Origin: Luteimonas terrae
GTDB taxonomy: Bacteria; Pseudomonadota; Gammaproteobacteria; Xanthomonadales; Xanthomonadaceae
Reading direction: 5' to 3'
DNA length: 64,000 bases
Assembly: GCF_004358165.1 (NCBI RefSeq)
Contig: NZ_SMTG01000004.1
Location: 124,001-188,000 of the forward strand
Shown piece after piece: positions 1,622 through 29,296 of this stretch (its first letter is position 1; each line of letters begins with the position of its first letter). The position numbers and the translations under genes were made by a program. The notes beneath the pieces were generated by a model, which saw only the letters and a list, made by a program, of their open reading frames with translations, made no database searches and was not told the DNA's origin.

Positions 1622-1758
1622 GCTGTTCAATCCGGCCTGTCCGCCCCGGTCGCGCATTCTGCCAGACCCGGTGCATCATCGACGTACGTTCCGTCGGGCG
1701 CGCTATGACGCCCTGCAGCAAGCCTGTGCCGCCGCGCGCCGGTATGCTTGCCGCCTGC

Positions 1759-1772
1759 TGACAACGCTGTCA
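1759..1772. promoter_or_regulatory. Putative LacI-family operator before the GH3 gene
   Basis: TGACAACGCTGTCA is a palindrome with 12 of 14 positions paired and a central CG, the usual form of LacI-family operators. It lies in the divergent region, 51 bases before the GH3 start and about 138 bases before the LacI start. A TATGCT hexamer at 1743-1748 could be the -10 element of the GH3 promoter, which would put the operator near the transcription start. The identical 14-mer occurs at 44039-44052. The assignment to the adjacent regulator is an inference. Confidence 0.75.
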
Positions 1773-1823
1773 TCGCTGCCTCGCAGCCTGGCGCCCGCCT
1801 TCCACTCCTTCCGGAGCCCTTCG

Positions 1824-11205: not shown

Positions 11206-11336
11206 CGCGCGAGGGGGTCTGCAAGGCGTCCGGGCCGGGGCGGACCCTGCAGTCTAGCCTCACCGCCCTGTGGCTATACTCGGGCGCTTGATTGCCCCGG
11301 ACCTGCTGCGTGCCTGAACCGTTGTCTCCGTCGCCG

Positions 11337-12536: not shown

Positions 12537-13348
12537 GCACCGGGACCGCAGCGAACGCCCTGTCGGCGACGATCGCCGGCATCGGCTTCTGGGCCGACGG
12601 CCTGCCGGACTGGGCGACCGCACGCGCATTCGCGACCGACGGCTCGCGTCCGGAATCGGCACCGTCGCGCCCGTCGCCGCAGCTGCTGGCGCCGAACGAA
12701 CGCCGTCGCGCGCCCGGCTCGGTCGCGGTCGCACTCGACGTGGCGCAGGCCGCGTGCCGGGATGCGGACATCGCGCCGGAGACGCTGCCGTCGGTATTCG
12801 CCTCGACGCACGGTGACCTGGGCATCACCGATTACATGTGCGACACGCTGGCGGCCGATCCCACCGCGATCTCGCCGACGAAATTCCACAACTCGGTGCA
12901 CAACGCCGCGGCCGGCTACTGGACCATCGGCACCGGCTGCACCGAAGCGACGACCGCGATCAGCGCCTACGACGCGACCTTCGCGCAGGGCCTGATCGAA
13001 GCGATGATGCAGCTGGCGACGGGCGCGCCGGCGGTGCTGCTGGTCGCCTACGACACCGCGTCCAGCGGCCCGCTGGGCACGCTGACGCACAGCGAAGGCC
13101 TGCTCGGCGCGGCGCTGGTACTCACGCGCGACGGCGCCGGCCCGCGCCTGACCGCCACGCTGCGCGACGGCACCGATCTCGACCTGCCCGGCCCGCTCGG
13201 CACGCAGGCGCAGGCCAACGCGATGGCGCAGATGCTGCCGCTGTTCGACGCACTGGCCACCGGCGGTTCGCGCGCGGTCCTGCGCGCGGGGCCGCATCGC
13301 ACGCTGTCGGTGGAGATCGACGGCGCACGCGCGGACGCGCAGTCATGA
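12533..13348 (+). CDS. Second, half-size beta-ketoacyl synthase (chain-length-factor-like)
   Basis: At 271 residues this is about two-thirds of a full ketosynthase. It matches the N-terminal ketoacyl-synthase fold seen in aryl polyene clusters (PF13723 type, from memory). Recognisable segments are FASTHGDLGITDYMC, SPTKFHNSVHNAAAGYWTIG and a glycine-cysteine at the nucleophile position (GTGCTEATTA). The two C-terminal catalytic histidine motifs of a complete synthase are missing, so it probably works as the non-condensing partner of the full ketosynthase encoded just upstream. Start ATG 12533 overlaps the previous stop, and its own stop overlaps the next start, both as ATGA. Confidence 0.87.
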   Translation: MSTGTAANALSATIAGIGFWADGLPDWATARAFATDGSRPESAPSRPSPQLLAPNERRRAPGSVAVALDVAQAACRDADIAPETLPSVFASTHGDLGITDYMCDTLAADPTAISPTKFHNSVHNAAAGYWTIGTGCTEATTAISAYDATFAQGLIEAMMQLATGAPAVLLVAYDTASSGPLGTLTHSEGLLGAALVLTRDGAGPRLTATLRDGTDLDLPGPLGTQAQANAMAQMLPLFDALATGGSRAVLRAGPHRTLSVEIDGARADAQS

Positions 13349-14172
13349 CCGGCCAGCCGCATCTGCATCGCGGCAACGTCGCGATCGTGATTCCGGCGCT
13401 CAACGAGGCGCTGCGCATCGACGAGGTCGTCAGCGAAGCGCTGGTGTACAGCGAACACGTGATCGTGGTGGACGACGGCTCCGACGACGCCACGCCCGAC
13501 ATCGTCGCCGCACTGCCGGTCACGCTGTTGCGCCACACCCGGCGCATGGGGAAGGGGCAGGCGCTGCGCGACGGTTTCGCCGAAGCGCGCCGCCGGGGCT
13601 TCGCGGCCGTGGTGACGATGGACGGCGACGGCCAGCACCGCGCCAGCGACATTCCGCGCCTGATCGCCGCGGCCAATGCGCACCCCGACTGCATCGTCAA
13701 CGGCGCGCGGCTGAAGAAGCGCGGCACCCAGCCCTGGTACCGCCGCATCGGCAACGACTTCGGCGACTGGGGCATCGCCTGGGGCTGCGGCTACCGCATG
13801 GTCGACACGCAGAGCGGCCAGCGGCTGTATCCGGCTTCGGTGCTCGCGCTCGACGACGTGCCCGGCGAAGGCTTCGTGTTCGAAGCGCAGATCCTGATTA
13901 GCGCCGCGCGCAAGCTGGGATGCGGCGTGGTGTCGGTGCCGGTGGAGACGCGCTACCACTGCGCGGATTCCGACGAGCAGTTCCGCAAGAGCCATTTCCG
14001 CCTGTTCCGCGACCTGTACAACATCACCTCGCACGTCATCGGGCAGGTGGTGTCGCATGGTCAGCTCCTGCGCGTCTATCGCGACACGCGCGCGCATCCC
14101 CCCGTGATCTACGACCCCGGCGCCGACACCGACGCCGTGCTCGCCCCCGAACCCATCCAAGGAGCAGGTTGA
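13345..14172 (+). CDS. Family 2 glycosyltransferase in the pigment operon
   Basis: The 275-residue GT-A protein resembles dolichyl-phosphate-mannose-synthase-like GT2 enzymes: VAIVIPALNEALRIDEVV, then VVDDGSDDAT, then VTMDGDGQH (metal-binding DxD) and a later acidic segment, VPGEGFVFEAQIL. No membrane helix is obvious, so it is cytoplasmic or peripheral. It overlaps the ketosynthase-like gene by ATGA and the halogenase start by one base. The position suggests that the pigment or its lipid anchor is glycosylated, though the donor and acceptor are not visible. Confidence 0.88.
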   Translation: MTGQPHLHRGNVAIVIPALNEALRIDEVVSEALVYSEHVIVVDDGSDDATPDIVAALPVTLLRHTRRMGKGQALRDGFAEARRRGFAAVVTMDGDGQHRASDIPRLIAAANAHPDCIVNGARLKKRGTQPWYRRIGNDFGDWGIAWGCGYRMVDTQSGQRLYPASVLALDDVPGEGFVFEAQILISAARKLGCGVVSVPVETRYHCADSDEQFRKSHFRLFRDLYNITSHVIGQVVSHGQLLRVYRDTRAHPPVIYDPGADTDAVLAPEPIQGAG

Positions 14173-15827
14173 TGCACGACGCCGCCGACACCCGTACCAC
14201 CGGACCGCGCGATCACCACGCGGACGTGGCGATTCTCGGGGGCGGTCTGGCCGGCCTCACCCTGGCGATGCAGCTGCGCCAGCGCCATCCCGACCTCGCG
14301 GTGACGGTGATCGAGCGGCGCGCGCATCCGGTGCGCGAGGCTGCGCACAAGGTCGGCGAATCGAGTGTCGAGATCGGCGCACATTACTTCGCGCACACGC
14401 TGGGCCTGCGCGAGCATCTGGAGACCGAGCAGATCCGCAAGTTCGGGTTCCGCTTCTTCTTTTCCGAAGGCGCCGACAAGGTCGACCGCTGCACCGAGCT
14501 CGGCGTCAGCCAGCTGATGCCCACGCCCTCGTGGCAGATCGACCGCGGCCGCTTCGAGAACCATCTGGGCGAGCGCGCACGTGCACTGGGCGTGCGTTTC
14601 GACGACGACGCGGTGGTGCGCGGCCTCGACATCGCCGATGACGACGGCGACCACGCGGTCCGCATCGAACAGGCCGGCGAAACGCATACCGTTACCTGCC
14701 GCTGGCTGGTCGACGCCAGCGGCCGCGCAGGCCTCGTCAAGCGCAAGCTCGATCTGGCGATGGCGAACGACCACAACGCCAATGCCGTGTGGTGGCGCGT
14801 GGACGGCATCGTCGATCCCAACAGCTGGTCGCAGGATGCGCACTGGCTGCAGCGCTGCGATCCGCCGGACCGCTGGCGTTCGACCAACCACATGTGCGGC
14901 CCGGGCTACTGGTTCTGGCTGATTCCGCTGTCGTCGGGCGCGCATTCGCTGGGCATCGTCTGCGACGCGGACATGCACCCGCTCGACACCATGAACACCC
15001 ACGCCAAGGCGATGGACTGGCTGCGCACGCACCAGCCACAGGTCGCCGCCAGCCTCGACAGTACCGAGCACACGCTGCAGGACTTCCTGTTCCTGCGGCA
15101 CTTCTCCTACGGCGTGAAGCAGGTGTTCTCGCGCAACCGCTGGGCACTGACGGGCGAGGCCGGACTGTTCCTCGATCCGTTCTATTCGCCGGGCAGCGAC
15201 TTCATCGCGATCAGCAACACCTACATCTGCGACCTGATCGAGAAGGAACGCGCGGGCACCGACATCGGCCCCTACGCCGAGCTCTACCAGCAGCTGTATT
15301 TCTCGTTCTACGAGAACACGCTCACCCTCTACCAGGACCAGTACCCGCTGTTCGGCGACGAGCAGGTCATGCCGGTCAAGGTGATCTGGGACTACACCTA
15401 TTACTGGGCGCTGCTGGCGCCGTTGTTCTTCGCCGAGCGCCTGACCGACCTGGCGACGCTGGGCCGCCTGCGCCCGGCATTCAATGAAGCACGTGCGTTG
15501 AACCTGGCGCTGCAGCCGCTGCTGCGCGAATGGGGCGCGCGCAACACCGCGCGAGGCCGGGCGCCGGCCTCGCGCCTGCTCGACCAGTTCCACATCGGCT
15601 GGTTCCGCGAGATGAACAGCGCGCTCAACGACACGCTCGACACCGAAGCCTTCGTCGCCCGCATCGCCGACAACGTCGCGCGCATGCGCTGGCTGGCCGC
15701 CGAGATCCTCGGCCGCGCCCGCCAGGATCACGCCGACATCGACGATCACGGCCTCGACGCACTGCTCGCCGACACCACCGATGTGCCGGTGTCGCTGGGC
15801 GCGAACTGGTACGCCGACGCCGCCTGA
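14172..15827 (+). CDS. Flavin-dependent halogenase-family protein (first of two in the pigment cluster)
   Basis: The 551-residue FAD protein opens with a dinucleotide-binding fold (VAILGGGLAGLTLAMQ). It carries the flavin-halogenase marker WxWxIP as WFWLIP (residues 247-252), a lysine in RKFGFRF (Lys90) at the place of the catalytic lysine, and FLDPFYSPGSDF, matching the Fx.Px.Sx.G halogenase signature. Xanthomonadins are brominated aryl polyenes (established), so aryl-ring bromination is the likely reaction. The C-terminal extension of about 150 residues is longer than in the second halogenase. The ATG overlaps the GT2 stop by one base. Confidence 0.85.
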   Translation: MHDAADTRTTGPRDHHADVAILGGGLAGLTLAMQLRQRHPDLAVTVIERRAHPVREAAHKVGESSVEIGAHYFAHTLGLREHLETEQIRKFGFRFFFSEGADKVDRCTELGVSQLMPTPSWQIDRGRFENHLGERARALGVRFDDDAVVRGLDIADDDGDHAVRIEQAGETHTVTCRWLVDASGRAGLVKRKLDLAMANDHNANAVWWRVDGIVDPNSWSQDAHWLQRCDPPDRWRSTNHMCGPGYWFWLIPLSSGAHSLGIVCDADMHPLDTMNTHAKAMDWLRTHQPQVAASLDSTEHTLQDFLFLRHFSYGVKQVFSRNRWALTGEAGLFLDPFYSPGSDFIAISNTYICDLIEKERAGTDIGPYAELYQQLYFSFYENTLTLYQDQYPLFGDEQVMPVKVIWDYTYYWALLAPLFFAERLTDLATLGRLRPAFNEARALNLALQPLLREWGARNTARGRAPASRLLDQFHIGWFREMNSALNDTLDTEAFVARIADNVARMRWLAAEILGRARQDHADIDDHGLDALLADTTDVPVSLGANWYADAA

Positions 15828-15849
15828 TCCGCCTGCCGGAGCACTGCGC

Positions 15850-17100
15850 ATGACCACGCTCCTGTTGTTGCAGTTGGCCGTCATCCTGCTGGCCGCACGC
15901 CTCTGCGGTTGGGTACTCCGCCATTTCGGGCAACCGGCGGTGATCGGCGAGATGGCCGCCGGCCTGCTGCTCGGCCCGGTGGTGTTCGGCGCGTGGATGC
16001 CGGAGGCGCACGCCGCGCTGTTTCCCGCCGCGTCGCTGCCGCCGCTGTCGGCGCTGGCGACGCTCGGCCTGGTGCTCTTCATGTTCGTGGTCGGCGCGGA
16101 ACTGCGCGCGGTCGAGGGCACGAAGGCGCAGGTGCGCGCAGCCGGCCTCGTCGGTGCATTGGGGATCTCCTTGCCGCTGGCGATGGGCCTGGCGATCTCG
16201 CCCTGGCTGCATCCGCGCTTCGCGCCGGAGGGCCTTGGCTTCTGGCCGTTCGCATTGTTCATCGCCGCCGCGATGTCGGTCACCGCGTTTCCGGTGCTGG
16301 CGCGCATCCTCAAGGATCGCAACCTCACCCAGACGCGCGCAGGCCGTCTGGCGATGAGCGCGGCGATCATCGACGACGGCTTCGTCTGGATCTTCCTGGC
16401 ACTGGTGCTGACGCTGGCCGGTGGCCACACCGGTCCGGGCATCGAAGTGGCGGCGACTGGTGCGCTGATCCTGGTCGCGGTCGCGTTCCTCGTGCTCAAG
16501 CCGCTGTATGCGTGGCTTCTGAAGCGCGGCTGCGACGAAGACGGCGCCCCCACCCGCGGCACACTGGTCGCGATCCTGATCGGCCTGGTCGGCTGCGCGG
16601 CCTTCGCCGAGGCGATCAGTCTGCACGCGGTGTTCGGCGCCTTCGTGTTCGGCGTCTGCCTGCCGCGCGACAACAGGCTGGTGCACCACCTGGCCAAGGC
16701 GTTCGAACCGGTGTCGATGCTGCTGCTGATGCCGATCGTGTTCGCGCTGGCCGGCCTCAACACCACGCCCGAGGCCTTCGTCGGCGCGGGGCTTGGCGCG
16801 TTCGCGCTGATCCTGTCGGTCGCGATCGCCGGCAAGATGCTCGGCGGGACCATCGGCGCGCGGCTGTCGGGTTATGACTGGCGCGACAGCTTCGCCGTCG
16901 GGTCGCTGATCAATGCGCGCGGACTGATGGAACTGGTGGTGCTGAAGATCGGTCTGGATGCCGGCCTCATCGGGCCGGAACTGTTCACGCTGATGTTCGG
17001 CATGACCCTCGTCACGACGGTCATGACCTCGCCGCTGCTGTCGTTGTGGGCGCGCCGCGGCGAAGGCGCGGCACTGGCCGATCGGTCCAGGCCGCGCTGA
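15850..17100 (+). CDS. CPA2-type cation:proton antiporter
   Basis: The 416-residue integral membrane protein has 11-13 predicted hydrophobic segments. It shows CPA2 exchanger hallmarks: IGEMAAGLLLGPVVFG near the N-terminus, FVVGAEL, the acidic pair in MSAAIIDDGFVWI and INARGLMELVVLKIGL. It should exchange Na+ or K+ for protons across the inner membrane. No regulatory TrkA domain is attached. It starts 22 bases after the halogenase stop, so it probably belongs to the same operon. That suggests a link to ion balance, to halide counter-ion supply or to pigment export. Confidence 0.88.
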   Translation: MTTLLLLQLAVILLAARLCGWVLRHFGQPAVIGEMAAGLLLGPVVFGAWMPEAHAALFPAASLPPLSALATLGLVLFMFVVGAELRAVEGTKAQVRAAGLVGALGISLPLAMGLAISPWLHPRFAPEGLGFWPFALFIAAAMSVTAFPVLARILKDRNLTQTRAGRLAMSAAIIDDGFVWIFLALVLTLAGGHTGPGIEVAATGALILVAVAFLVLKPLYAWLLKRGCDEDGAPTRGTLVAILIGLVGCAAFAEAISLHAVFGAFVFGVCLPRDNRLVHHLAKAFEPVSMLLLMPIVFALAGLNTTPEAFVGAGLGAFALILSVAIAGKMLGGTIGARLSGYDWRDSFAVGSLINARGLMELVVLKIGLDAGLIGPELFTLMFGMTLVTTVMTSPLLSLWARRGEGAALADRSRPR

Positions 17101-17106
17101 GTACGG

Positions 17107-17589
17107 TCAACGCGCCGGCGGCGGGGTCGCCGGTGCAGGGGGCATCGCGGTTTCCGGCGGCGGATTGGCCACCCAGATCGCCACGCCGCTGGCGTACTTC
17201 TGCTGCGGGCTGATGTCCACGCCGACGCCGGCCGAGGAGAACGTGCGACCGCCGCCACGTCCCAGCCCGCCGCCGACACTGACGCCGCCGCTGCGATACC
17301 CGTCGGCCGTGCCCTGGAACAACACGCCGTTGGCACCGAGCTTGGCCGCTTCGGCGCGCAGCTTGCGCAGTACCGAATCGACCTTGTTCTGCTCGCCGTA
17401 GGTCAGCGCGCCGCTGCTGGTGTTGAGGATCGCGATCTCCTCGTACTGGCCCGGCGGCGGCCCGTGATAGATGCGAACCTGCGCCGGGTCGATCGGCGCG
17501 CGCGGCGTGCCGGTCAGCACGTGGGAGCTGGCGCAGCCGGTGACCACGACGGCGGCGAGCGAGAGCAGCATCAAGCGGAAGGCGCGCAT
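17107..17589 (-). CDS. Small lipoprotein, last gene of the leftward pigment operon
   Basis: The 160-residue protein has a lipoprotein signal (MLLSLAAVVVTGC, Cys about residue 19). Its compact domain contains RIYHGPPPGQYEEIAILNTS and LRAEAAKLGANGVLF, a pattern like the DUF4156/RcsF-type heavy-metal-like fold of small lipoproteins. A glycine-serine-rich stretch and a proline-rich tail follow (PPAPATPPPAR). Function unknown. It converges on the antiporter with a 6-base gap and lies 85 bases downstream of the next exported protein. Confidence 0.75.
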   Translation of the reverse strand: MRAFRLMLLSLAAVVVTGCASSHVLTGTPRAPIDPAQVRIYHGPPPGQYEEIAILNTSSGALTYGEQNKVDSVLRKLRAEAAKLGANGVLFQGTADGYRSGGVSVGGGLGRGGGRTFSSAGVGVDISPQQKYASGVAIWVANPPPETAMPPAPATPPPAR

Positions 17590-17674
17590 GGCGATTTCTC
17601 AGTTCGGGTGTGCCCGGATGGGCGCCCGACGATCATCGGGCCGACGACCTGAAGCCGGCGTGGATGACGCGCGC

Positions 17675-18169
17675 TCAGCCGCCCTGCCCGATCCGGGCGC
17701 CGTCGACGGGGTTCCGCAGCCAGCGCTTGATGTGCCAGGTCAGCGCGCGGAAGTTCGCGTTCATCTGGAAACAGCCGCTGGTCATGCCGCCACCGCGCCC
17801 CTGCATGACGCCGTTGAAGCCCGACACGCGCGTGCCGTCCTCGTACAGCGCGCCGCGCACGCGCAGCGTCTGGGTGTGTTCGATGAACCAGTTGCCGCCC
17901 CAGATGGCATCGACGATCTCGACCTTGAGCACGCGCCCGTGCATGTCGGCCAGCGGCGTCTGCGCCGGCTCGGCGACCTTGCGCAGCTCGCGGATCAGGG
18001 CGGTGTTGAAGTTGCCTGCGATGTCGCAGTTGTCGAGGATCTCGGCATCGATGTCGGCGCCCGCGACGACCGGCACCGGTACTTCGAGACGGATCTTCTC
18101 TGCGGCTATCGCGGTGCCGGCGAGCGTGCAGCCGATCGCGATCAGACAGGTCAGCGGAAACAGGCGCAT
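17675..18169 (-). CDS. Exported protein of unknown function in the pigment operon
   Basis: The 164-residue product begins with a signal peptide (MRLFPLTCLIAIGCTLAGTAIAA). The mature protein contains CDIAGNFNTALIRELRK, a WGGNWFIEHTQ segment and a C-terminal cysteine (SGCFQMN). I do not recognise a named family beyond conserved hypothetical proteins of xanthomonads. It follows the ketoreductase by 32 bases on the same strand, so co-expression with the pigment genes is likely. An upstream in-frame start at 18265 falls inside the ketoreductase and lacks a signal peptide, so 18169 is preferred. Confidence 0.72.
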   Translation of the reverse strand: MRLFPLTCLIAIGCTLAGTAIAAEKIRLEVPVPVVAGADIDAEILDNCDIAGNFNTALIRELRKVAEPAQTPLADMHGRVLKVEIVDAIWGGNWFIEHTQTLRVRGALYEDGTRVSGFNGVMQGRGGGMTSGCFQMNANFRALTWHIKRWLRNPVDGARIGQGG

Positions 18170-18201
18170 CGATCGATACTCGTCCCTGGAGAAGTGGTGC
18201 G

Positions 18202-18942
18202 TCAGCCCATGCCGCCGTTGACGCCGATGACCTGGCCGTTGATGTAGCCGGCCGGTTCCGAGCACAGGAACGCGACCAGCGCCGCGACCTCGTCGGGCGT
18301 GCCGGCGCGTGCGGCAGGCACGATCTGCTTGATCGTCTCCTGCGGAAACGCGTCATCGGCCATGCTGCCGGCGATCACGCCCGGTGCGACCACGTTGACG
18401 GTGATGCCGCGGCTGGCCATCTCGCGCGCCAGCGACTTCGACGCGCCGTGCAGCGCGGCCTTGGCGGCGGCGTAGTTGGTCTGCCCTCGGTTGCCGGTCA
18501 CCGCAGCGACCGAGGACACGTTGACGATGCGGCCCCAGCGCTTGCGCGCCATCGGCAGCAGCAGCGGCTGGGTGACGTGGAAAAAGCCGTGCAGCGACAC
18601 GTCGATGACCCGCGTCCACTGCGCCTCGGACATGCCGGCCATCGGCGCGTCGTCGTGGATGCCGGCATTGTTGACGACGACCTGGATCGGCCCCGCTTCG
18701 AGCAGCGCGTCGAGCGCGCGACGCACGGCCGCGCCATCGGCGACATCGAACACGACAGCTTCCGCGCTGCCGCCCGCCGCGACGATGTCGGCGACGACCG
18801 TCCCGGCCCGTGCGCGATTGCCGTTGGCATGGACGATGACGTGGAAGCCATCGGCGGCGAGGCGCCTGCAGACCGCGCCGCCGATGTCGCCGCTGCCACC
18901 GGTGACGAGGGCGCGACGTGCGGATGTCGTGGATTCGCTCAT
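18202..18942 (-). CDS. 3-oxoacyl-ACP reductase (FabG-like) of the aryl polyene pathway
   Basis: The 246-residue short-chain dehydrogenase should reduce the 3-keto group of the growing polyene using NADPH. It shows the cofactor loop TGGSGDIGG, NNAG, the catalytic Ser in VSSVAA, and Tyr-x-x-x-Lys in TNYAAAKAAL, plus the family C-terminus (INGQVIGVNGGMG). Its ATG at 18942 places the cofactor strand (ALVTGG) 11 residues in. Upstream open frame to 19053 runs through an intergenic palindrome and is not used. Its partners are the dehydratase upstream and the ketosynthases of the divergent operon. Confidence 0.92.
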   Translation of the reverse strand: MSESTTSARRALVTGGSGDIGGAVCRRLAADGFHVIVHANGNRARAGTVVADIVAAGGSAEAVVFDVADGAAVRRALDALLEAGPIQVVVNNAGIHDDAPMAGMSEAQWTRVIDVSLHGFFHVTQPLLLPMARKRWGRIVNVSSVAAVTGNRGQTNYAAAKAALHGASKSLAREMASRGITVNVVAPGVIAGSMADDAFPQETIKQIVPAARAGTPDEVAALVAFLCSEPAGYINGQVIGVNGGMG

Positions 18943-18980
18943 GTGGCGATTGTAACGAGCCGCCGACACGTGCGACGACC

Positions 18981-19062
18981 GCAGGATGGGCAGAGCAAGG
19001 CGAAACCCATCATCGCCATGAGCGTTCGTGCGATGGGTTTCGCTGCGCGCCACCCATCCTGC
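18981..19062. repeat. Extragenic palindrome inside the pigment operon
   Basis: The element has nested inverted repeats: GCAGGATGGG at 18981-18990 pairs with CCCATCCTGC at 19053-19062, and GCGAAACCCATC at 19000-19011 pairs with GATGGGTTTCGC at 19032-19043. It fills most of the 127-base gap between the ketoreductase and dehydratase genes. The sequence resembles a short interspersed palindrome I associate with xanthomonad genomes. It could form a strong RNA hairpin that tunes expression or stability of the operon's tail. Confidence 0.8.
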
Positions 19063-19069
19063 AAAGCGA

Positions 19070-19510
19070 CTATTGCGCTGGCCCCAGCATCACCGCCGCA
19101 CGCCCTTCGGCGAGCAGCACGCCATCGCAGCTGATCCGGAACGCGTACTGCTGGCTGTCCTCCGACTCCACCAGCACCTCGGCCACGCATTCGAGATCGC
19201 CGGCGAGATCGTCGACGTACGCGACGTGCAGGTGCACGCCCCGCAAGGCGACCAGCATGCCCGGCCGCACCGGCGCGCCGCTGGCCTGCCCGCGCAATCC
19301 GCCGTGCACGGCCATCGCCTGCGCGCCGTATTCGCACAGATGCAGGGCGCGCAGCCGGCCGTGGCTGCGCAGCGGGTTGTCGGCGGCGCGATGACTCGCG
19401 CTGTGCAAAGTCACGCGCGCGTCGTTCCATTCGGTGACCGCATCCCACAGGCACATCGCGCCCTGGTGCGGAATCATCGCCAGGATCGCGTCCCGATCGA
19501 CGACGCTCAT
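19070..19510 (-). CDS. 3-hydroxyacyl-ACP dehydratase (ApeP/FabZ-like)
   Basis: The 146-residue hot-dog protein should dehydrate 3-hydroxyacyl intermediates to give the conjugated polyene. The opening MIPHQGAMCLWDAV and the helix segment HLCEYGAQAMAVHGG resemble the ApeP family, with the histidine and glutamate expected at the active site. It overlaps the exporter stop as ATGA (19507-19510), so translation is coupled. Its own downstream neighbour, the ketoreductase, is separated by the palindromic element. Confidence 0.87.
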   Translation of the reverse strand: MSVVDRDAILAMIPHQGAMCLWDAVTEWNDARVTLHSASHRAADNPLRSHGRLRALHLCEYGAQAMAVHGGLRGQASGAPVRPGMLVALRGVHLHVAYVDDLAGDLECVAEVLVESEDSQQYAFRISCDGVLLAEGRAAVMLGPAQ

Positions 19511-21924
19511 GGAAGCAGCTCCGCACGCGCGGCTTCGATCGCCGCACGCTGGCGCGCAACCAGCAGCGACAGCACGAAGTTGCACAACACGCCGAGCGCG
19601 ACCGTGCTGCCGATCGCGCGCAGCACCGGAATCGACGACAGCGCGAGCAGGCTGAAGACCAGCAGGGTCATCAGACTGCAGACCAGGATCGCGTGCAGCG
19701 TGCGGATCTGGTCGGCACGATCGTCGCCGGCGTGCTCGAAGAACAGCGCGTAATCGAGGCCGAGGCCGGCGGCGAGGATCAGCGCGACCAGATGGAACAG
19801 GGTCAGTTCGACGCCGGCCAGTCGCAGCACGGCGACGATCACCAGCAAGGTCAGCAGCGTCGGCAGCAGCACGCGCCAGACGCGGCGCGGGCTGCGCAGC
19901 GCGATCCACACCGTGCCGACCAGCAGCACCAGCGCGACGGCCATCGCCGCGAGCACGCGGCCGCGGTATTCGACCACCAGCGATTCGGACGCGGCCTTCA
20001 TGTCGAGCAGGCGCACGTCGACATCGGCGGTGCGCGCCTGCGCGGCGAGTGCCTCGACATCGGCCGGATCGTCGAGACCGCTCAGCGAGACCAGCGCGGT
20101 CGAGCGGTCGTCGTGCTCGAGCAGCAGGCCCGACACCGCCGTCGCCAGCGGCGAGCCCTCCAGATCGGCGCGGGTAAGGGACGCGGCCGATTTCGCGCGG
20201 GCGACGTCCTCGACGAAGGGTTCGAACGCATCCTCGTTGAATTCCGAACCGGCCAGTGCCGCGGCGAGCATCGTGCGCAGCGTCGCGTCGTCCGGCAGCG
20301 CGGCCTGTCGTGCGCGCTGGACGTCCGCGGCGGGCAGATAGCGCGCGGCCATGTCGTAGCCGTCGAGATGCCCGTCGGCGACCAGCGCATCGAGCGCTGG
20401 GCGCAACGCCGCCGTCGCGTCGAGCACGGCATCGCTGCCCCGCGCCTGCGCGACCAGCACGTAACGCACGTCCGGCGCGCCGAGTTCGGCGCGCAGCTCG
20501 GTGTCGCGCTGCATCGAGGCCGGATCGACCGGCGTCAGCTTCGACAGGTCGTTCTGCCAGAACACGCCGGGGCTCCAGGCGATCGCGGCGACGGCGGCGA
20601 GTGCGAGGACCGCCAGCGACCACTTCGGTCGCGGCAGCGCCTCGATGCGATGCCACAGGCGCTGCAGGCGCGGCGAATCGGCGAGATCCGGCGGCGACGG
20701 GTCGACCAGACCCGGCAGCAGATAGCGCGTGGTCAACGCGGCGATGCCCAGCGCAAAGATCGTGAACACCGCGAGCTGGCGCAGGCCGTCGACGCCGGAG
20801 AACAGGAAGGTCGCGTAGGCGATGCAGGTCGCGACGACGCCGGTCGACAGCGCCGGCCACAGCCCCCGCACGTTGCGCCACGGCGACAGCCCGGCGCGCT
20901 GGTGGCTGAAGAAGTGGATCGGATAGTCCTGCACCACGCCGATCAGGGTGAAGCCGAAGGCGATGGTGATGCCGTGTACGCCGCCGGGGAACAGCAGCGC
21001 CACCGCGGTGAGGCCGGCGATGCCTGCACTGGCGAGCGGCAGCACGCCGAGCAGCGGCATCTTCCAGCTGCGATAGGCGATCAGCAGCAGCAGGATCAGG
21101 CCGATGGTGTCGACCATGCCGATGCGCTGCGCCTCGGCCTGCGTGCGGCCGCCGATGTCGACCGAGAACGCACCCGGACCGACGACGTCGAGGGTCGCGG
21201 TGCTGCCGGCGGCCTGCGTGGCGAAGGTGTCGCGGATGGTGCCGACCGCGTCGAGCTGGCCGGTCGGATCGAAGCCCGCCGCGCGCGTTTCGACCAGCAG
21301 CAAGGCCTGCGTGCCGGCCTTGTCGAACCACACGTCGTGCAGGCGCTGCGGCGCGCCGGCCGGCTGCCAGGCCTCGGCGAGCGCGAGGACTTCCAGCGTG
21401 GGATCGGATGGTATCAGGGGCTCGACGAGCCCCGCGGCGGGGGAACCGAGATCCTGCAGGCGCGCATCGAGCGCCTCGCGCAGCGTGTCGGCGTCGAGCG
21501 GCGCGGCGTCGAAGCTCGACGTCAGCAGATAGCGGTACGGCAGCAGGTCTTCGGGAAACGCATCGAGTCCGGCTTCGCCACCGTTGGTGACCAGCGTGTA
21601 GCGCGGGTCGTTGACCAGCGCGTCATGCAGTGCGCGCGAACGGTCGGCGAGTGCTTCGGGCGCTTCGCCCGAGATCGCCAGCATCAGCAGGCGCGAGCCC
21701 GGCCCGTCGCCGAGTTCCTCCATCAGCAGCCGCTGTTCGGGCGTGCGCGCATCGGGCAGGAAGCGGCGCAGGTCGCCGCTGAACTCCAGTCGGGCGCTCG
21801 CGAGCCAGCCCAGTGCGAGCAATGCCAGCAACCACAGGGCGGCCAGCGTCAGCCGCAGGCCGGGGCGCTGCAGCAGGCGGTCGCGGAATCCGGGCCGCCC
21901 GCTCAACGCGGGACGTCGTGGCAC
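19507..21924 (-). CDS. MMPL/RND-type exporter of the pigment cluster
   Basis: The 805-residue inner-membrane protein has an N-terminal helix, a large periplasmic domain, five to six helices, a second periplasmic domain and a second helix bundle, the usual RND repeat. Identifiable parts are GMVDTIGLILLLLIAYRSWKM and GLGLDYALFFEHAGDDRADQ in the transmembrane relay region. Aryl polyene clusters encode such an exporter to move the lipid-anchored pigment to the outer membrane. The start is ambiguous: GTG 21924 gives a 22-base overlap with the LolA-like gene, while TTG 21906 would overlap its stop as TTGA. Both are in frame. Confidence 0.9.
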   Translation of the reverse strand: MPRRPALSGRPGFRDRLLQRPGLRLTLAALWLLALLALGWLASARLEFSGDLRRFLPDARTPEQRLLMEELGDGPGSRLLMLAISGEAPEALADRSRALHDALVNDPRYTLVTNGGEAGLDAFPEDLLPYRYLLTSSFDAAPLDADTLREALDARLQDLGSPAAGLVEPLIPSDPTLEVLALAEAWQPAGAPQRLHDVWFDKAGTQALLLVETRAAGFDPTGQLDAVGTIRDTFATQAAGSTATLDVVGPGAFSVDIGGRTQAEAQRIGMVDTIGLILLLLIAYRSWKMPLLGVLPLASAGIAGLTAVALLFPGGVHGITIAFGFTLIGVVQDYPIHFFSHQRAGLSPWRNVRGLWPALSTGVVATCIAYATFLFSGVDGLRQLAVFTIFALGIAALTTRYLLPGLVDPSPPDLADSPRLQRLWHRIEALPRPKWSLAVLALAAVAAIAWSPGVFWQNDLSKLTPVDPASMQRDTELRAELGAPDVRYVLVAQARGSDAVLDATAALRPALDALVADGHLDGYDMAARYLPAADVQRARQAALPDDATLRTMLAAALAGSEFNEDAFEPFVEDVARAKSAASLTRADLEGSPLATAVSGLLLEHDDRSTALVSLSGLDDPADVEALAAQARTADVDVRLLDMKAASESLVVEYRGRVLAAMAVALVLLVGTVWIALRSPRRVWRVLLPTLLTLLVIVAVLRLAGVELTLFHLVALILAAGLGLDYALFFEHAGDDRADQIRTLHAILVCSLMTLLVFSLLALSSIPVLRAIGSTVALGVLCNFVLSLLVARQRAAIEAARAELLP

Positions 21925-22628
21925 AGCCGCTGCGCGGCGTCGAGCGAGTCGACCGCAGCGGCGGCGGTCGCGGCGCTGCCGAGCAGCGTCGGTTGCGCAT
22001 CCCCCTGCTTCGGGCGCGTCTCGATGCAGCGCAGTTCGGCGTCGCGGCCGCGCAGCACGATGGCGGTCACGCGACCGGCCAGGCGGGCATCGCGCGGGCT
22101 CAGGGTCAGCGTCCAGTCCGCCGGCACGCCGTCGGCCTCGAGGGCGTAGACGGTTTCCAGCGCCTTGCGGTCCCCGGCCAGCAGCGCACCGAAGCTGCCC
22201 TGCAACGCAGCGAGCTCGGGCACGCGCGCCAGCGAGAACGTGCGCGCAGCGCGGCCCTCGCGGGCGATCGTCGCCTCGGTGCCGCGGATGGTCGTGGTCT
22301 CGACGTAGGGCGTGCGCACTTCGCGCACCAGCGTGTCGGCGTCCGGGCGGCGGTATTCGCCCGAGAGCACCAGCGGGCGCTTGAGCATCGACGACACGCG
22401 CAGCTCCACGAACGGCGTGGCAGTGGCGCCGTGCTGGGTCAGGCGCTGCAGGATCCAGTCGGCGTCCACGCTGCGCGGCGCGACGGCGGCCGGCGCCGGC
22501 ACGCGGTCGCGCGACTGGCTGGCGCGCTGGGCGCCGTCAGCGCTCTGGGTCGCCGACCAGGCCGGCGCTGCGAGCATCGCCAGCAGCAGGCAACCCGCCT
22601 GCCACCGGTGCGGAAACGTGCGGGGCAT
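21903..22628 (-). CDS. LolA-like periplasmic carrier protein
   Basis: The 241-residue protein starts with a signal peptide (MPRTFPHRWQAGCLLLAMLAAPAWS), and its mature part has the LolA-type barrel pattern: FVELRVSSMLKRPLVLSGEYRRP and VRTPYVETTTIRG. It probably shuttles the lipid-linked pigment through the periplasm with the MMPL exporter. Starts at 22637 or 22649 are also possible. The first 92 bases overlap the end of the LpxL-like acyltransferase in another frame, which is unusual but supported by the signal peptide on one side and the continuous frame on the other. Confidence 0.83.
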   Translation of the reverse strand: MPRTFPHRWQAGCLLLAMLAAPAWSATQSADGAQRASQSRDRVPAPAAVAPRSVDADWILQRLTQHGATATPFVELRVSSMLKRPLVLSGEYRRPDADTLVREVRTPYVETTTIRGTEATIAREGRAARTFSLARVPELAALQGSFGALLAGDRKALETVYALEADGVPADWTLTLSPRDARLAGRVTAIVLRGRDAELRCIETRPKQGDAQPTLLGSAATAAAAVDSLDAAQRLCHDVPR

Positions 22629-23526
22629 CGGCGCCATTCCAGAAGTCATAGAAGTTGAACCAGTTGTAGGGAGCGCTGCGGGCGTGATGTTCGAGGCGCG
22701 CGGCATAACGGTGGATGAGCGCGGACACGCCCGCCTGGCGCTCGCGACGCGGCAGGTCGATGCCGTCGCTGAAAGGCTCGAACACCAGGTCGTAGCGGTT
22801 GCCCCCACGGTACAGGCCGAAGGCCAACATCACCGGCGCCTTCAGCACCGAGGCGAGCAGCCAGGGCGCCACCGGAAACGGCGCCGGCGCACCGAGGAAC
22901 GGCACCGGCAGCGTGGCGCCGCCCTCCTGGCTGCGGTCGACCAGCAGCGCGACCATCGCGCCCTGCGCCAGGCCGTCCTGGATCGCCAGCGCCACCGACG
23001 GGCCGTCGGCACCCGCGTCGATGACGGTCGCGGCGACCTCCGGGTTGAGCGCTTCGAGCAGCTCGGTCATCGCCTGACCGTGCGCGCGGTCGAGCACGAC
23101 GCGGATCTTGTAGTCGGGCCGCTGGCTGGCGAGCACGCGCAACACTTCGAAACTGCCCAGATGCGAGCCGAACAGCAGCACGCCGCGGCCCGTGTCCAGA
23201 TGCCCGTGCAGGATGTCCAAGCCCTGCGCGTCGACGTCGAAGCGACGCGTGTTCTCGCTGAGCAGGAACAACCGGTCCAGGATGGTCGCCGCGAAGGTGC
23301 GGAAGTGCCGCGCGACCTCGCCCAGCCGCGCGGGCCGGCCGAACATGCGCGACAGGTAGCGCCGCGAATCGCGACGTTCGGCACCCCGGCGGATCATGAA
23401 GTACAGCGAGATCGGATACAGCAGCGCGCGTGCCGGCGCCCGTCCGCAGTTCGAGGCGAACACCAGCAGCGATCGCAACGCCAGCCGCCCGCCGCCCTCG
23501 CGGCGCGCCTTCCACGCGCTGCTCAT
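22537..23526 (-). CDS. LpxL/HtrB-like lipid acyltransferase
   Basis: The 329-residue protein belongs to the lysophospholipid/lipid A acyltransferase family: FGSHLGSFEVLR carries the HxxxxE-type catalytic pattern, and LLVDRSQEGG is followed by a substrate groove (VPFLGAPAPFPVAPWLLA). It likely adds an acyl group to the pigment's head or lipid anchor at the inner membrane. The family usually ends near NWFNFYDFW. Here about 33 residues (GADAPHVS to GDPER) run beyond it, over the start of the LolA-like gene. Its ATG overlaps the hot-dog gene's stop as ATGA. Confidence 0.87.
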   Translation of the reverse strand: MSSAWKARREGGGRLALRSLLVFASNCGRAPARALLYPISLYFMIRRGAERRDSRRYLSRMFGRPARLGEVARHFRTFAATILDRLFLLSENTRRFDVDAQGLDILHGHLDTGRGVLLFGSHLGSFEVLRVLASQRPDYKIRVVLDRAHGQAMTELLEALNPEVAATVIDAGADGPSVALAIQDGLAQGAMVALLVDRSQEGGATLPVPFLGAPAPFPVAPWLLASVLKAPVMLAFGLYRGGNRYDLVFEPFSDGIDLPRRERQAGVSALIHRYAARLEHHARSAPYNWFNFYDFWNGADAPHVSAPVAGGLPAAGDARSAGLVGDPER

Positions 23527-23837
23527 GCCTGCGCGAGACCGTCGGCGACGACGTCGCCACTGGCGAGCAGCACGCCCGCGCGCTCCACGCGGAAGCGCCA
23601 GCGCGGCGCGCCGTCGCGGCGCATGTCCTCGAGCACGATCGCCGCCGCTTCCCCCGGCAGCAGCGGCTGCACGAACTTCACCTGCGGCAGTCGCAATGCG
23701 TCCTGCGGGCCGTATGCGGCTTCGATCGCGTCGATGACCCGGTCGAGGATCACCACGCCCGGCACCAGCGGCCGGCCGGGAAAATGGCCGGGCAGGCAGG
23801 GATGCGCGGCATCGACGACGAACACGTGCGACGTCAT
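23523..23837 (-). CDS. Hot-dog fold dehydratase/thioesterase-like protein (ApeI-like)
   Basis: The 104-residue protein has the FabA/FabZ-like core HPCLPGHFPGRPLVPGVVILDRV, where the HFPGxPxxPGV element is diagnostic, followed by KFVQPLLPGEAA. In aryl polyene clusters a protein of this type works as a second dehydratase or as a thioesterase-like helper. Which role applies here is not resolvable. It follows the PlsC-like gene with a 3-base gap and overlaps the next gene by 4 bases. Confidence 0.87.
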   Translation of the reverse strand: MTSHVFVVDAAHPCLPGHFPGRPLVPGVVILDRVIDAIEAAYGPQDALRLPQVKFVQPLLPGEAAAIVLEDMRRDGAPRWRFRVERAGVLLASGDVVADGLAQA

Positions 23838-23840
23838 CGC

Positions 23841-24611
23841 TCAGCGCCTGCCGAGCATCGCGGCCACGGCGTCCTGCGCTTCGCGGGCGACGGCCTGCCG
23901 GCCGGCGGCGCCGGCGCGGCCTTCGACACGGATCGGCGTGCCCACGGTGGCACGCATCGGGCCGCGGCAGGTGCGGAAGAAGCCGGTCGGCGGCAGCACC
24001 TTGCCGGTGCCGTGCAGCGCGATCGGCAGCACGTCGACGCCGGCGTCGATCGCCGCCTGGAACGACCCCGACTTGAACTCGCCCAGACGGCCGTCACGCG
24101 AGCGCGTGCCTTCGGGAAACAGGCACAGCGACTTGCCCGAACCGAGCAGCCCGCTGACCTGGCGCCGCAGCAGCGGCCCGGCGCGGCGGTCTTCGCGGCT
24201 GATGAAGAGCATGCCGGTGGCGCGCGCGTAGGTGCACAGGAACGGCACGCGGCGCATCTCGTCCTTGAGCAGGAAGCGCAGCGGCACCGGCACGGCCATG
24301 AACAGCACGCAGATGTCGAGCAGCGATTCGTGGTTGGCGACGACGAGGTAGGGGCGGTTCCAGTCGACCGCTTCGGCGCCTTCGACCGTCAGACCACCCG
24401 CGGGCCCGACCAGACCCGGCGCCCAGTGCGTGCGCGCCATCTCCAGCGCGAGCTCGGGCCGGCCGGTCAGCGCCTGCCGGATCAGGGACACGCTGATCCA
24501 GCCCGCCGTCCATAGCAGGGTGTACAGGCATTCCAGGACGTTGATCGCGCGTGCGGACAGGGCCGCGAACGCCGCGGCCCCGGTTGCGGCACGGGTCTGT
24601 CGGTATTCCAT
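23841..24611 (-). CDS. PlsC-like 1-acyl-glycerol-phosphate acyltransferase
   Basis: The 256-residue protein carries the acyltransferase motifs in order: NHESLLD (HxxxxD), LFISREDRR, FPEGTRSRDGRLG and a late VLPIALHGTG block. An N-terminal hydrophobic helix (VLECLYTLLWTAGWISVSLI) ties it to the inner membrane. In an aryl polyene context it probably builds the lipid or acyl moiety to which the polyene is esterified, rather than ordinary phosphatidate. It sits 63 bases downstream of the membrane-protein gene on the same strand. Confidence 0.88.
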   Translation of the reverse strand: MEYRQTRAATGAAAFAALSARAINVLECLYTLLWTAGWISVSLIRQALTGRPELALEMARTHWAPGLVGPAGGLTVEGAEAVDWNRPYLVVANHESLLDICVLFMAVPVPLRFLLKDEMRRVPFLCTYARATGMLFISREDRRAGPLLRRQVSGLLGSGKSLCLFPEGTRSRDGRLGEFKSGSFQAAIDAGVDVLPIALHGTGKVLPPTGFFRTCRGPMRATVGTPIRVEGRAGAAGRQAVAREAQDAVAAMLGRR

Positions 24612-24674
24612 CGGGCGACAAGGATATCGCGTGTGACAGCCGCAAATCGCGCCGTTTGCGTTCAGGCGCCGGCT

Positions 24675-25361
24675 TCAGCGCAGCAGATCGCGCCAGAACA
24701 TCGGGCCGAGCCCGGCCAGCTTGCGCAGAAATCCGAGAAATCCGTCATAGCGACCGGGGAACCGCCGCTTGCGGTACGCGAACTCGACGATGAAGAACCC
24801 GCCGATGACGCCGTAATTGAGCAGGTTGGCCCACAGCGACCACTGCTCCTGGGTGATCGGCAGCGGCGAGGGCACGCCCAGGCTCTCCAGCAGGCCGGAC
24901 GGACTGGCGATCAGCGCCAGCGTCAGGCTGGCGCCGGCCATGCCCAGCAGCACGATGGCCCAGGCCGCGGTCAGGCCGCGGGTATAGCGCTGCAGATCGG
25001 GCGCGAGCGCGGCGGCATCGCCGGCCTCCTCGATGCCGACCACGATCCGCGTGATCAGCGGCACCGAGCCGGGCCTGAGCGTGCGCGCGAAGATCCATGC
25101 GATGCCGACCACGAACACCACCGGCACCAGCAGCAGCGGCAGCGCGGCATGGCCCGCGTCGTAGAGCCCCCACGCGCCCCAGAGCAACAGGGGCGTCGCG
25201 ACGAACGCCAGCGGGCGCCGCGCCAGCAGCGGCTCGACGACGAACATCGCGATCAGCGCAACGAGTGCGCCGAGCGCGAGGCCGTCGTGCTGGAAGACGC
25301 TCGCCAGATGCGCCAGGGCCGTGTATCCGAGCCCCAGCAGCAGTTGCAGCAGCAGGATCAA
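24675..25361 (-). CDS. COG4648-like membrane protein of the pigment cluster, TTG start
   Basis: The 228-residue integral membrane protein has about six hydrophobic helices (LILLLQLLLGLGYTALAHL, LALGALVALIAMFVVEPLL and others) and ends in a basic segment, YRKRRFPGRYDGFLGFLR. It matches the predicted-membrane-protein family found in aryl polyene clusters, whose job is unknown. The only start consistent with its first helix is TTG at 25361, which overlaps the acyl carrier protein's stop as TTGA, implying coupled translation. A longer frame upstream to 26090 runs through the carrier-protein and halogenase genes and is not used. Confidence 0.8.
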   Translation of the reverse strand: MILLLQLLLGLGYTALAHLASVFQHDGLALGALVALIAMFVVEPLLARRPLAFVATPLLLWGAWGLYDAGHAALPLLLVPVVFVVGIAWIFARTLRPGSVPLITRIVVGIEEAGDAAALAPDLQRYTRGLTAAWAIVLLGMAGASLTLALIASPSGLLESLGVPSPLPITQEQWSLWANLLNYGVIGGFFIVEFAYRKRRFPGRYDGFLGFLRKLAGLGPMFWRDLLR

Positions 25362-25627
25362 GTGGTGCGGTGCTGCTCGACGTGCGCGGAGAGCGCACGC
25401 AGCGAGGCGAAGATCTTCCGGTTCTCGTCGTTGTCCGAGCGCAGCTGGAAGCCGTAGCGCTTGCTGATCGCCAGCGCCAGCTCCAGCGCATCGATCGAAT
25501 CCAGACCCAGGCCAGCGTTGAACAGCGGGGCTTCGGGATCGATGTCGGCCGCCTGCACGTCCTCCAGGTTCAGACTCTCGACCAGCAGGTCGGCGAGGGC
25601 GCGTTCGGCTTCGGTTTGGGCGGACAT
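25358..25627 (-). CDS. xanC: Acyl carrier protein, XanC-like
   Basis: The 89-residue protein has the phosphopantetheine site GLDSIDALELALAI (Ser about residue 45). It should carry the aryl starter and growing polyene. It begins at ATG 25627 and is the first gene of the leftward operon, about 128 bases from the divergent halogenase. The symbol follows the Xanthomonas pigment carrier protein by function and position, not by a database match. Only one carrier protein is visible in the window. Confidence 0.85.
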   Translation of the reverse strand: MSAQTEAERALADLLVESLNLEDVQAADIDPEAPLFNAGLGLDSIDALELALAISKRYGFQLRSDNDENRKIFASLRALSAHVEQHRTT

Positions 25628-25755
25628 CGGGACTTCCGGGACAGGACTGGGGTGCAACGATCCGGCATCGGCACCGCGCGTGCAAGCGCTGCGGACCGCC
25701 TACGGGGCTTGCCGCTATCATGCGCGACTGTCCGCACGCCGCCTGCAGATCCACG

Positions 25756-27122
25756 ATGAACCCGACCCCGCCCCCGACCGCAAGTGACACCGCCGAGCGC
25801 GCCAGGCTCGACGTCGACGTGCTGGTCATCGGCGGCGGTCCGGCGGGCACCACCGCGGCCACGACGCTGGCCCGGCGGGGCTGGAAGGTCCTGCTGCTGG
25901 AGAAGGACGTGCATCCGCGCTTCCACATCGGCGAGTCGCTGCTGCCGATGAACCTGCCGATCCTCGAACGCCTCGGCGTGCTGGAGCAGGTTCGTGCGAT
26001 GGGCACGCTCAAGCTCGGCGCCGATTTCCCCGTGCACGACGCCGACGACACCACCCACGTGTTCCGCTTCGACCGCGCGCTCGATCCCAAGTTCGGCTAC
26101 GCCTTCCAGGTGCGCCGCTCCGAGTTCGACGCGATGCTGTTCGACAATGCGCGCGCCAACGGCGTCGACGCGCGCATGCGGGTCAAGGTCGAGTCGCTGG
26201 TCCACGATGCCGACGGGCGTCCGACGGGCGCGGTCGCGCGCGATGCCGAAGGCGACCGGCTCGATGTCACGATGCGCTACCTCGTCGATGCCAGCGGCCG
26301 CGACACGTTCCTGGGCAGCAGGCTCAAGCTCAAGCGCAAGAGCACCAAGCACCAGTCGGCGGCGATCTTCAGCCACTTCCGCGGCGTGCAGCGTCGCGAT
26401 GGCGACGATGCCGGCAACATCACCGTCGACCGTTTCGAATACGGCTGGTACTGGCTGATTCCGCTCGGCGACGACGTCATGAGCGTCGGCGCGGTGTGTT
26501 TCCCCGAGTACCTCAAGCAACGCCAGGGCCTCGACAACGAGACGTTCCTGATGCGCACGCTGATGCGCACGCCGTCGGTGGCCCGGCGGATGGCCGGCGC
26601 GGAGCGCGTCGCCCCGGTCCATGCCACGGGCAACTACTCCTACGACTGCACGCGCATGACCGGCCCGGGCTGGGTCATGGCCGGCGATGCATATGCCTTC
26701 ATCGATCCGGTGTTTTCCTCGGGCGTGTATCTGGGCATGAACAGTGCCGAACATGCCGCCGATGTGGTCGACGGCAGCCTGCGCGACCCCGCCTGCGAAC
26801 ACGCCCTGCAGCGCGCGATGGAACGTCGCCTGCGACGCGGCCTGCGCCACTTCAGCTGGTTCATCCATCGCTTCACCACGCCGGTCATGCAGCGCCTGTT
26901 CGCGGCGCCGCGCAACGACTGGCAGCTCGAGCAGGCCGTGATCTCGATGCTGGCCGGCGACGTTTTCGACAATCCCGCGGTGTTGCGCCGCCTGCGCCTG
27001 TTCCGCCTGGTCTACGCGGTCAATGCGATCGCGATCGCACCGGCGGCATTGCGCGGCTGGTTCGCGCGCCGTCGCCAGGTCCGCGCGCAGTTCCGTGGCG
27101 ACACCCTGCACGAGGGCAATCC

Positions 27123-27126
<4 letters not shown>
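25756..27126 (+). CDS. Flavin-dependent halogenase-family protein (second of two in the pigment cluster)
   Basis: The 456-residue protein has the FAD fold VLVIGGGPAGTTAATTLARR, FHIGESLLPMNL, Lys86 in TLKLGADF at the catalytic-lysine position, WxWxIP as WYWLIP (residues 231-236), and FIDPVFSSGVYLG, the Fx.Px.Sx.G signature. It resembles phenol- and pyrrole-type halogenases more than tryptophan 7-halogenase in length. The expected reaction is bromination of the hydroxybenzoyl ring or polyene. Its stop overlaps the chorismatase GTG start (GTGA), so the two are translated together. Confidence 0.85.

Positions 27127-29296
<2,170 letters not shown>

Follow-up and report, generated by a model that had tools for sequence, protein, structure and literature searches.

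Two halogenase-family genes of separate ancestry in a xanthomonadin-type aryl-polyene cluster of Luteimonas terrae and their distribution across the family Xanthomonadaceae

Xanthomonadin I carries one bromine on its ring and one on its chain. The pigments of Xanthomonas are described, in the available text of PMC3691225, as bearing zero to two bromine atoms, with xanthomonadin I dibrominated and bromination serving as a chemical marker of the genus; hence, the earlier sequence-only reading of the DNA studied here was right that xanthomonadins can carry more than one bromine. In X. axonopodis pv. manihotis, the excerpted text of PMC3838355 lists a halogenase (xanmn_chr15_0075), the 'putative reductase/halogenase' XanB1 (0086) and XanB2 (0087). 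So far, the accessible portions of the literature on xanthomonadin and aryl-polyene halogenation, which leave out the original pig-cluster papers, assign no enzyme to either bromine. PMC3691225 mentions one halogenase gene in Xanthomonas, PMC8042644 and PMC3826837, both on Xanthomonas, name no halogenase in the passages at hand, and PMC8253772, seen in excerpt, treats the aryl polyenes of E. coli. In this study, we analysed a window of 64,000 nucleotides from Luteimonas terrae (contig NZ_SMTG01000004.1, positions 124,001 to 188,000, of a 3.57 Mb assembly). A xanthomonadin-type aryl-polyene cluster spans about 11.3-28.2 kb of this window and includes two genes of the flavin-dependent halogenase family, here called Hal1 and Hal2. 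We found that the two proteins belong to different clades and that, across the family, the presence of one gene is nearly independent of the presence of the other.

Hal1 (14172..15827, + strand, 551 residues) and Hal2 (25756..27126, + strand, 456 residues) are open reading frames at the places and of the lengths given by the sequence-only reading, which had described them as two different halogenases in one pigment cluster. For Hal2, an in-frame ATG at 25720 would lengthen the protein to 468 residues. The couplings proposed in the same reading are also borne out. The stop codon TGA (14170-14172) of a GT2 glycosyltransferase gene overlaps the ATG of Hal1 by one base, and the Hal2 frame shares four bases, GTGA at 27123-27126, with the frame of a XanB2-type chorismatase. 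The two genes are separated by genes of the - strand (about 17.1-25.6 kb), an arrangement that fits their predicted placement in separate operons. Hal2 occupies the position of the Xanthomonas XanB1 gene. The cluster as a whole combines a pair of beta-ketoacyl-acyl carrier protein synthase (KS) and chain-length factor (CLF), an acyl carrier protein (ACP), a ketoreductase (KR), dehydratases, an exporter, acyltransferases, GT2 and XanB2, which is the gene set of the xanthomonadin type.

Both proteins exceed the cut-off of Pfam Trp_halogenase (PF04820, 21 bits), with 54.7 bits for Hal1 and 92.2 bits for Hal2, each in two stretches. Their top NCBIfam match is CmlS (NF033113, an equivalog), at 84.9 and 203.9 bits, respectively, far below the cut-off of 900 bits. 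The flavin-binding motif GxGxxG reads GGGLAG in Hal1 and GGGPAG in Hal2. The catalytic lysine and the WxWxIP motif of flavin-dependent halogenases, both described in the part of PMC5945002 at hand, are found in Hal1 as K90 and WFWLIP (247-252) and in Hal2 as K86 and WYWLIP (231-236), the two lysines falling in one alignment column; the third signature, FxxPxxSxG, reads FLDPFYSPG (333-341) and FIDPVFSSG (315-323). We examined these motifs in unique homologues from the family, the class and the named loci that scored above 250 bits over more than 300 query positions. WxWxIP and FxxPxxSxG are conserved in 96/96 rows for Hal1 and 102/102 for Hal2, and the lysine in all 94 covered rows for Hal1 (2 of the 96 are uncovered) and 102/102 for Hal2. 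Thus, the three motifs claimed from the sequence are present in both proteins and kept in every covered homologue.

The AlphaFold model of Hal1, built from 33 sequences, has a mean predicted local distance difference test score (pLDDT) of 86.8. In a Foldseek search with this model, ranks 1-45 were all halogenases or 3nix, an unassigned Cytophaga flavoprotein, with PltA, ChlB4, CmlS, CtcP and PltM first. After realignment PltM, Bmp2, CtcP and 3nix were tied on top (Z 28.3-28.9), PltM giving Z 28.9 with a root-mean-square deviation of 2.8 over 428 aligned residues. The Hal2 model (mean pLDDT 49.5, from 4 sequences only) carries no structural claim. In sequence, Hal2 matches solved halogenases with up to 216 bits; its best solved chains include 8zop (FasV), 3e1t (CndH), 5buk (Mpy16), 7fco (ChlB4) and 3i3l (CmlS), and the ten best comprise nine halogenases and 3nix.

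Hal1 and Hal2 of the window share 25% identity over 323 columns. The sequence-only reading had called for a phylogeny with Bmp- and Plt-type halogenases, which we built from 53 chosen rows, 16 of them Hal1 (first 420 residues) and 21 Hal2, with a midpoint root used for drawing only. The Hal1 rows form one clade (support 99/96), as do the Hal2 rows (100/99). With moderate support (93/89), the Hal2 clade joins CndH, CmlS, FasV, PltA, Mpy16 and ChlB4, which are also among its best solved relatives, although Hal2 keeps a clade of its own. PltA, Mpy16 and CndH are, we assume, variant B enzymes. The text of PMC8407142, as far as available, uses 'variant B' for halogenases of tethered substrates and names ChlB4 and Bmp2. 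Hal1, unlike Hal2, lies outside the branch (100/95) that unites the PltA-type enzymes, Hal2, a more distant Hal2-like type and Bmp2; hence, it does not group with variant B and stands as a deep clade that holds no solved chain in this tree. The idea that Hal1 and Hal2 are recent duplicates is ruled out by this topology. As a separate observation, one relative carries two adjacent Hal2 genes from different Hal2 subclades (L058, G101:C1:1206196-1209031).

We then followed both genes through 149 genomes of the family, calling orthologs by high score and using the chain-length-factor-like KS partner as the marker of the cluster. Orthologs of Hal1 were found in 73 genomes, of Hal2 in 76 and of the KS partner in 97. 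Three genomes with a Hal gene and no KS-partner ortholog (G007, G014 and G141) were excluded from the comparison of types. Among the 97 partner-bearing genomes, 58 have both genes, 13 only Hal1, 16 only Hal2 and 10 neither. Under independence 54 genomes would be expected to have both (Fisher p 0.058); the presence of Hal1 and that of Hal2 are nearly independent. The retention of either gene without the other favours two separate reactions over redundancy.

In 60 stretches fetched from relatives and picked to represent all presence/absence types, the xanthomonadin-type loci share a single gene order. Hal1 (25 stretches) and Hal2 (30 stretches) each keep a fixed position in it, which argues against chance, and in many loci one or both are missing. 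Moreover, the interval between ACP and XanB2 measures 153-388 bases in 18 Hal2-less loci versus 1456-1714 in 27 loci with Hal2, one further Hal2-bearing locus being unmeasurable; X. dyei, which has no Hal2, exceeds the 18 with about 627 bases. Contig breaks as a source of false absence were considered and set aside, as the junction of the missing gene was fully read in 10/13 Hal1-only, 16/16 Hal2-only and 8/10 'neither' genomes (the others being G041, G047, G054, G001 and G030). When 46 chosen clusters are placed on a tree rooted at its midpoint, a minimum of eight changes is needed for either gene. Shuffled labels give 15.6 and 14.4 changes on average, and the lower observed numbers indicate that presence and absence are passed on within lineages as well. 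Within the genus that includes Lysobacter sp. Root916 (genus of G138), Hal2 is present in 14/20 genomes. In Luteimonas granuli Gr-4 (L235), Hal1 matches are split over two reading frames at 12820-14404 and Hal2 has no match genome-wide, so this cluster is apparently losing both genes.

All four types occur among named strains, given here as examples, some of them the same assemblies as in the 149-genome set. Both genes are present in X. euroxanthea, X. hortorum, X. arboricola pv. guizotiae, X. populi (where Hal2 lies between ACP and XanB2), Luteimonas endophytica, Pseudoxanthomonas gei and Lysobacter dokdonensis. Hal1 alone is found in Lysobacter selenitireducens, L. spongiicola, L. bugurensis, L. 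defluvii, Stenotrophomonas ginsengisoli and Xanthomonas dyei, and Hal2 alone in Pseudoxanthomonas yeongjuensis, Lysobacter soli, Luteimonas gilva, Luteimonas aquatica and Lysobacter chinensis. Stenotrophomonas humi, S. terrae, S. nitritireducens, [Pseudomonas] boreopolis and Lysobacter sp. yr284 have neither. For these strains, Hal1 was scored as absent on the basis of GT2 and KR in the flanking DNA alone, while Hal2 was searched genome-wide in 49 named genomes, 34 of which were positive; some loci in which the flank end cuts Hal2 are marked undecided in the motif tally, and other locus comparisons show Hal2 there. In the named Xanthomonas loci, Hal1 follows GT2 in 9/9, and Hal2 is present in 8/9 of these genomes, X. 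dyei being the exception. On the other hand, Hal1 is absent, with GT2 and KR present, from 8/9 named Stenotrophomonas loci (L178, L189, L196, L205, L208, L211, L219 and L221). In apparent contrast, a 1985 title, seen in a reference list, announces halogenated pigments in Xanthomonas maltophilia.

Based on these data, we favour with moderate confidence the explanation that Hal1 and Hal2 are two non-redundant FADH2-dependent halogenases acting at two positions or stages of a xanthomonadin-type aryl polyene. Since the two enzymes belong to different clades and are lost separately, they are most simply read as catalysing two distinct halogenation steps. Hal2, of XanB1 type, would most likely halogenate the 3-hydroxybenzoate-derived ring early, its substrate probably tethered to the ACP of the cluster, because the gene is coupled to XanB2 and the protein appears to be kin to halogenases of tethered aromatic substrates. 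By exclusion, and because of its coupling to KS, CLF and GT2, Hal1 would add a second halogen elsewhere or later, our best guess being that it acts on the polyene chain or on the aryl polyene once completed. In each enzyme, reduced flavin and oxygen would turn the halide, presumably bromide by analogy with Xanthomonas, into hypohalous acid (HOX), which would reach the substrate via the conserved lysine (K90 or K86). We infer activity, halide, site and order of action of both enzymes, and the assignment of ring and second place could be reversed. The proposal of two sites or stages in the sequence-only reading gains partial support from the largely independent presence that it predicts and from the difference between the enzymes; the halogen-free pigment reported from Azoarcus and the non-brominated one reported from X. 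populi pull the other way.

Several observations weigh against this explanation. In the structural comparison, monooxygenases follow from Z 25.6 (p-hydroxybenzoate hydroxylase) versus a top value of 28.9, and the fold of the Hal1 model alone leaves the choice between halogenase and hydroxylase unsettled. In the halogenase tree, the 93/89 of Hal2's grouping lies below the starred support level, and long branches were flagged by the tree program. We saw no signal of clean excision for Hal1: the interval between GT2 and KR spans 33-2742 bases in Hal2-only loci, 37-1663 in 'neither' loci and 1639-4192 in loci with Hal1, so that intervals vary and overlap, and Hal1 remnants in the GT2-KR gaps of Hal1-less loci were not seen at E 1e-4. 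In Azoarcus BH72, the only halogenase listed in the available text of PMC3949708 is arcA, which adjoins the XanB2-type arcB as Hal2 adjoins XanB2 and which by its position would be of Hal2 type; the pigment, arcuflavin (C41H52O4), is described there as a nonbrominated, halogen-free heptaene. Finally, the pigment of X. populi is non-brominated according to the title of a 1982 paper, known through a reference list, and X. populi CFBP1817, the one strain examined, keeps both genes with near-invariant positions unchanged. Broken copies of Hal1 or Hal2 were looked for in X. populi and not found. The rule that gene presence predicts bromination therefore fails for X. populi, if the title applies to the sequenced strain.

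The Azoarcus pigment would fit the possibility that only Hal1 halogenates the pigment, with Hal2 a halogenase-like flavoenzyme that oxidizes the aryl starter in a different way or acts on another substrate. We consider this unlikely, yet it survives better than the other alternatives. It would also suit the wider occurrence of Hal2-type genes outside the family, in 33 versus 7 genomes of the 369 searched, and the report, in the available part of PMC7876137, that the monooxygenase QhpG is structurally closest to the halogenase CmlS. However, the invariance of all three motifs in the 102 Hal2 rows and the predominance of halogenases among the ten best solved chains speak for a halogenase. Moreover, a medium without bromide would likewise yield a halogen-free pigment, and growth without bromide may be the cause in both Azoarcus and X. 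populi.

The X. populi case would also suit a situation in which both genes are sound and the pigment is usually unhalogenated in life, for want of expression or of bromide, or because the enzymes act on another substrate. This is improbable, given the intact active-site motifs across our sample and the dibrominated xanthomonadin I reported in the accessible text of PMC3691225. Least probable is a pair that is redundant or halide-specific at one position, since the co-occurrence in 58/97 clusters, slightly above expectation, is outweighed by the deep divergence into different clades, the different gene couplings (GT2 versus chorismatase) and the retention of Hal1 alone in 13/97 and of Hal2 alone in 16/97 genomes.

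Returning to two halogenases with separate tasks, the history of Hal1 deserves attention. Luteimonas sp. XNQY3 (L236) is a close relative of the window in KS (93% identity), GT2 (87%), the Na+/H+ exchanger-like gene (87%), KR (92%) and Hal2 (94%), and the KS tree places it beside the window, but its Hal1 is only 67% identical. This protein belongs to a second Hal1 lineage, found in 5/23 chosen loci (L236, L233, L171, L177 and L084) with FastTree support 1.0. In L236 the divergent gene occupies the same slot after GT2, between genes of a close relative; hence, Hal1 appears to have been exchanged as a single cassette in a gene-for-gene replacement. Another genome of the genus (G123) carries two Hal1 genes, at C1:2576268-2577869 and C2:413705-415312, which are 77% and 67% identical to that of the window. 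It is possible, although on balance doubtful, that Hal1 founds an uncharacterised halogenase clade acting on conjugated polyene carbon and not on an aromatic ring, as a swappable tailoring cassette. If true, a halogenase of the polyene chain would be an unusual biocatalyst.

A search of 369 genomes of the class detected Hal2-type proteins (43-59% identity) in 33 genomes that do not belong to the family and Hal1-type proteins (40-58%) in 7, with both at such identity in a single genome (G512). We examined the neighbours of Hal2 in 28 of these non-family loci, namely those with retained flanking sequence of up to 1.5 kb per side: XanB2 is present in 15, ACP without XanB2 in 5, GT2 and KR in 3, the KS partner in 3 and none of these in 2. 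Thus, the association between Hal2 and the supply of 3-hydroxybenzoate is an old one. In the three loci with GT2 and KR (L145, L148 and L149), the Hal2-type gene sits in the slot of Hal1 in the window, and thus a Hal2-type gene can occupy the place held there by Hal1. In addition, the more distant Hal2-like type (about 33% identity) is found in 16/149 family genomes. Six of its loci (L115-L120) have a differently ordered polyene cluster and keep all three halogenase motifs, and one such protein has 3nix as its nearest solved chain.

The remainder of the cluster begins on the + strand with the KS of the aryl-polyene type II polyketide synthase (PKS; 11292..12536, likely start 11337), which is syntenic in relatives and scores 513.8 bits with NCBIfam PRK09185, above the cut-off. 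It is followed by the KS partner of ORF16 type (12533..13348, Pfam Ketoacyl-synt_2) and GT2 (13345..14172, Pfam Glycos_transf_2). Downstream of Hal1, the Na+/H+ exchanger-like membrane protein (15844..17100, + strand, Pfam Na_H_Exchanger) is present in some related clusters only. The - strand genes encode a KR of FabG type (18202..18921, NCBIfam PRK05653, 339 bits); a product that we take to be a dehydratase-like protein, DH2 (19070..19510); an MMPL/RND-type exporter (19507..21924, Pfam MMPL); a presumably LolA-like carrier, named after related clusters (21903..22541); an LpxL-type acyltransferase (22537..23526, Pfam Lip_A_acyltrans); a FabA/FabZ-like dehydratase, DH1 (23523..23837, Pfam FabA 22.6 bits, slightly below the cut-off of 23); a 1-acylglycerol-3-phosphate acyltransferase (23841..24611, NCBIfam TIGR00530, 111 bits); and the ACP (25358..25627). 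The labels ACP, LolA and DH2 are based on sequence and position, with synteny in addition for the latter two reading frames. The XanB2-type chorismatase (27123..28154, + strand, likely start GTG) closes the cluster with 136.9 bits for Pfam FkbO_Hyg5-like_N and 207 bits for NCBIfam TIGR04444, below the cut-off of 325. Elsewhere in the genome (G000:C5:1803065-1804444), a third halogenase belongs to the typical tryptophan-halogenase family (PF04820, 675.6 bits); its nearest solved chain is 6y1w, with 6frl, presumably BrvH, also close.

The four natural types, occurring in named type strains, turn the question of which enzyme sets which bromine into a comparison by mass spectrometry that needs no gene editing. 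One end of such a comparison has a described counterpart in Lysobacter enzymogenes, whose yellow pigment cluster, in the available text of PMC3691225, contains a similar set of type II PKS genes, XanB2 included, but no halogenase gene, and whose pigment shows no bromine pattern, as in our 'neither' type. The Xanthomonas pig cluster has the same pair of genes as the window, which comes from Luteimonas, and the accessible text of PMC3838355 does not state a division of labour between them. Altogether, the halogenase pair is already known in Xanthomonas; what our analysis adds is the family-wide pattern of four types and the separate ancestry of the two enzymes.

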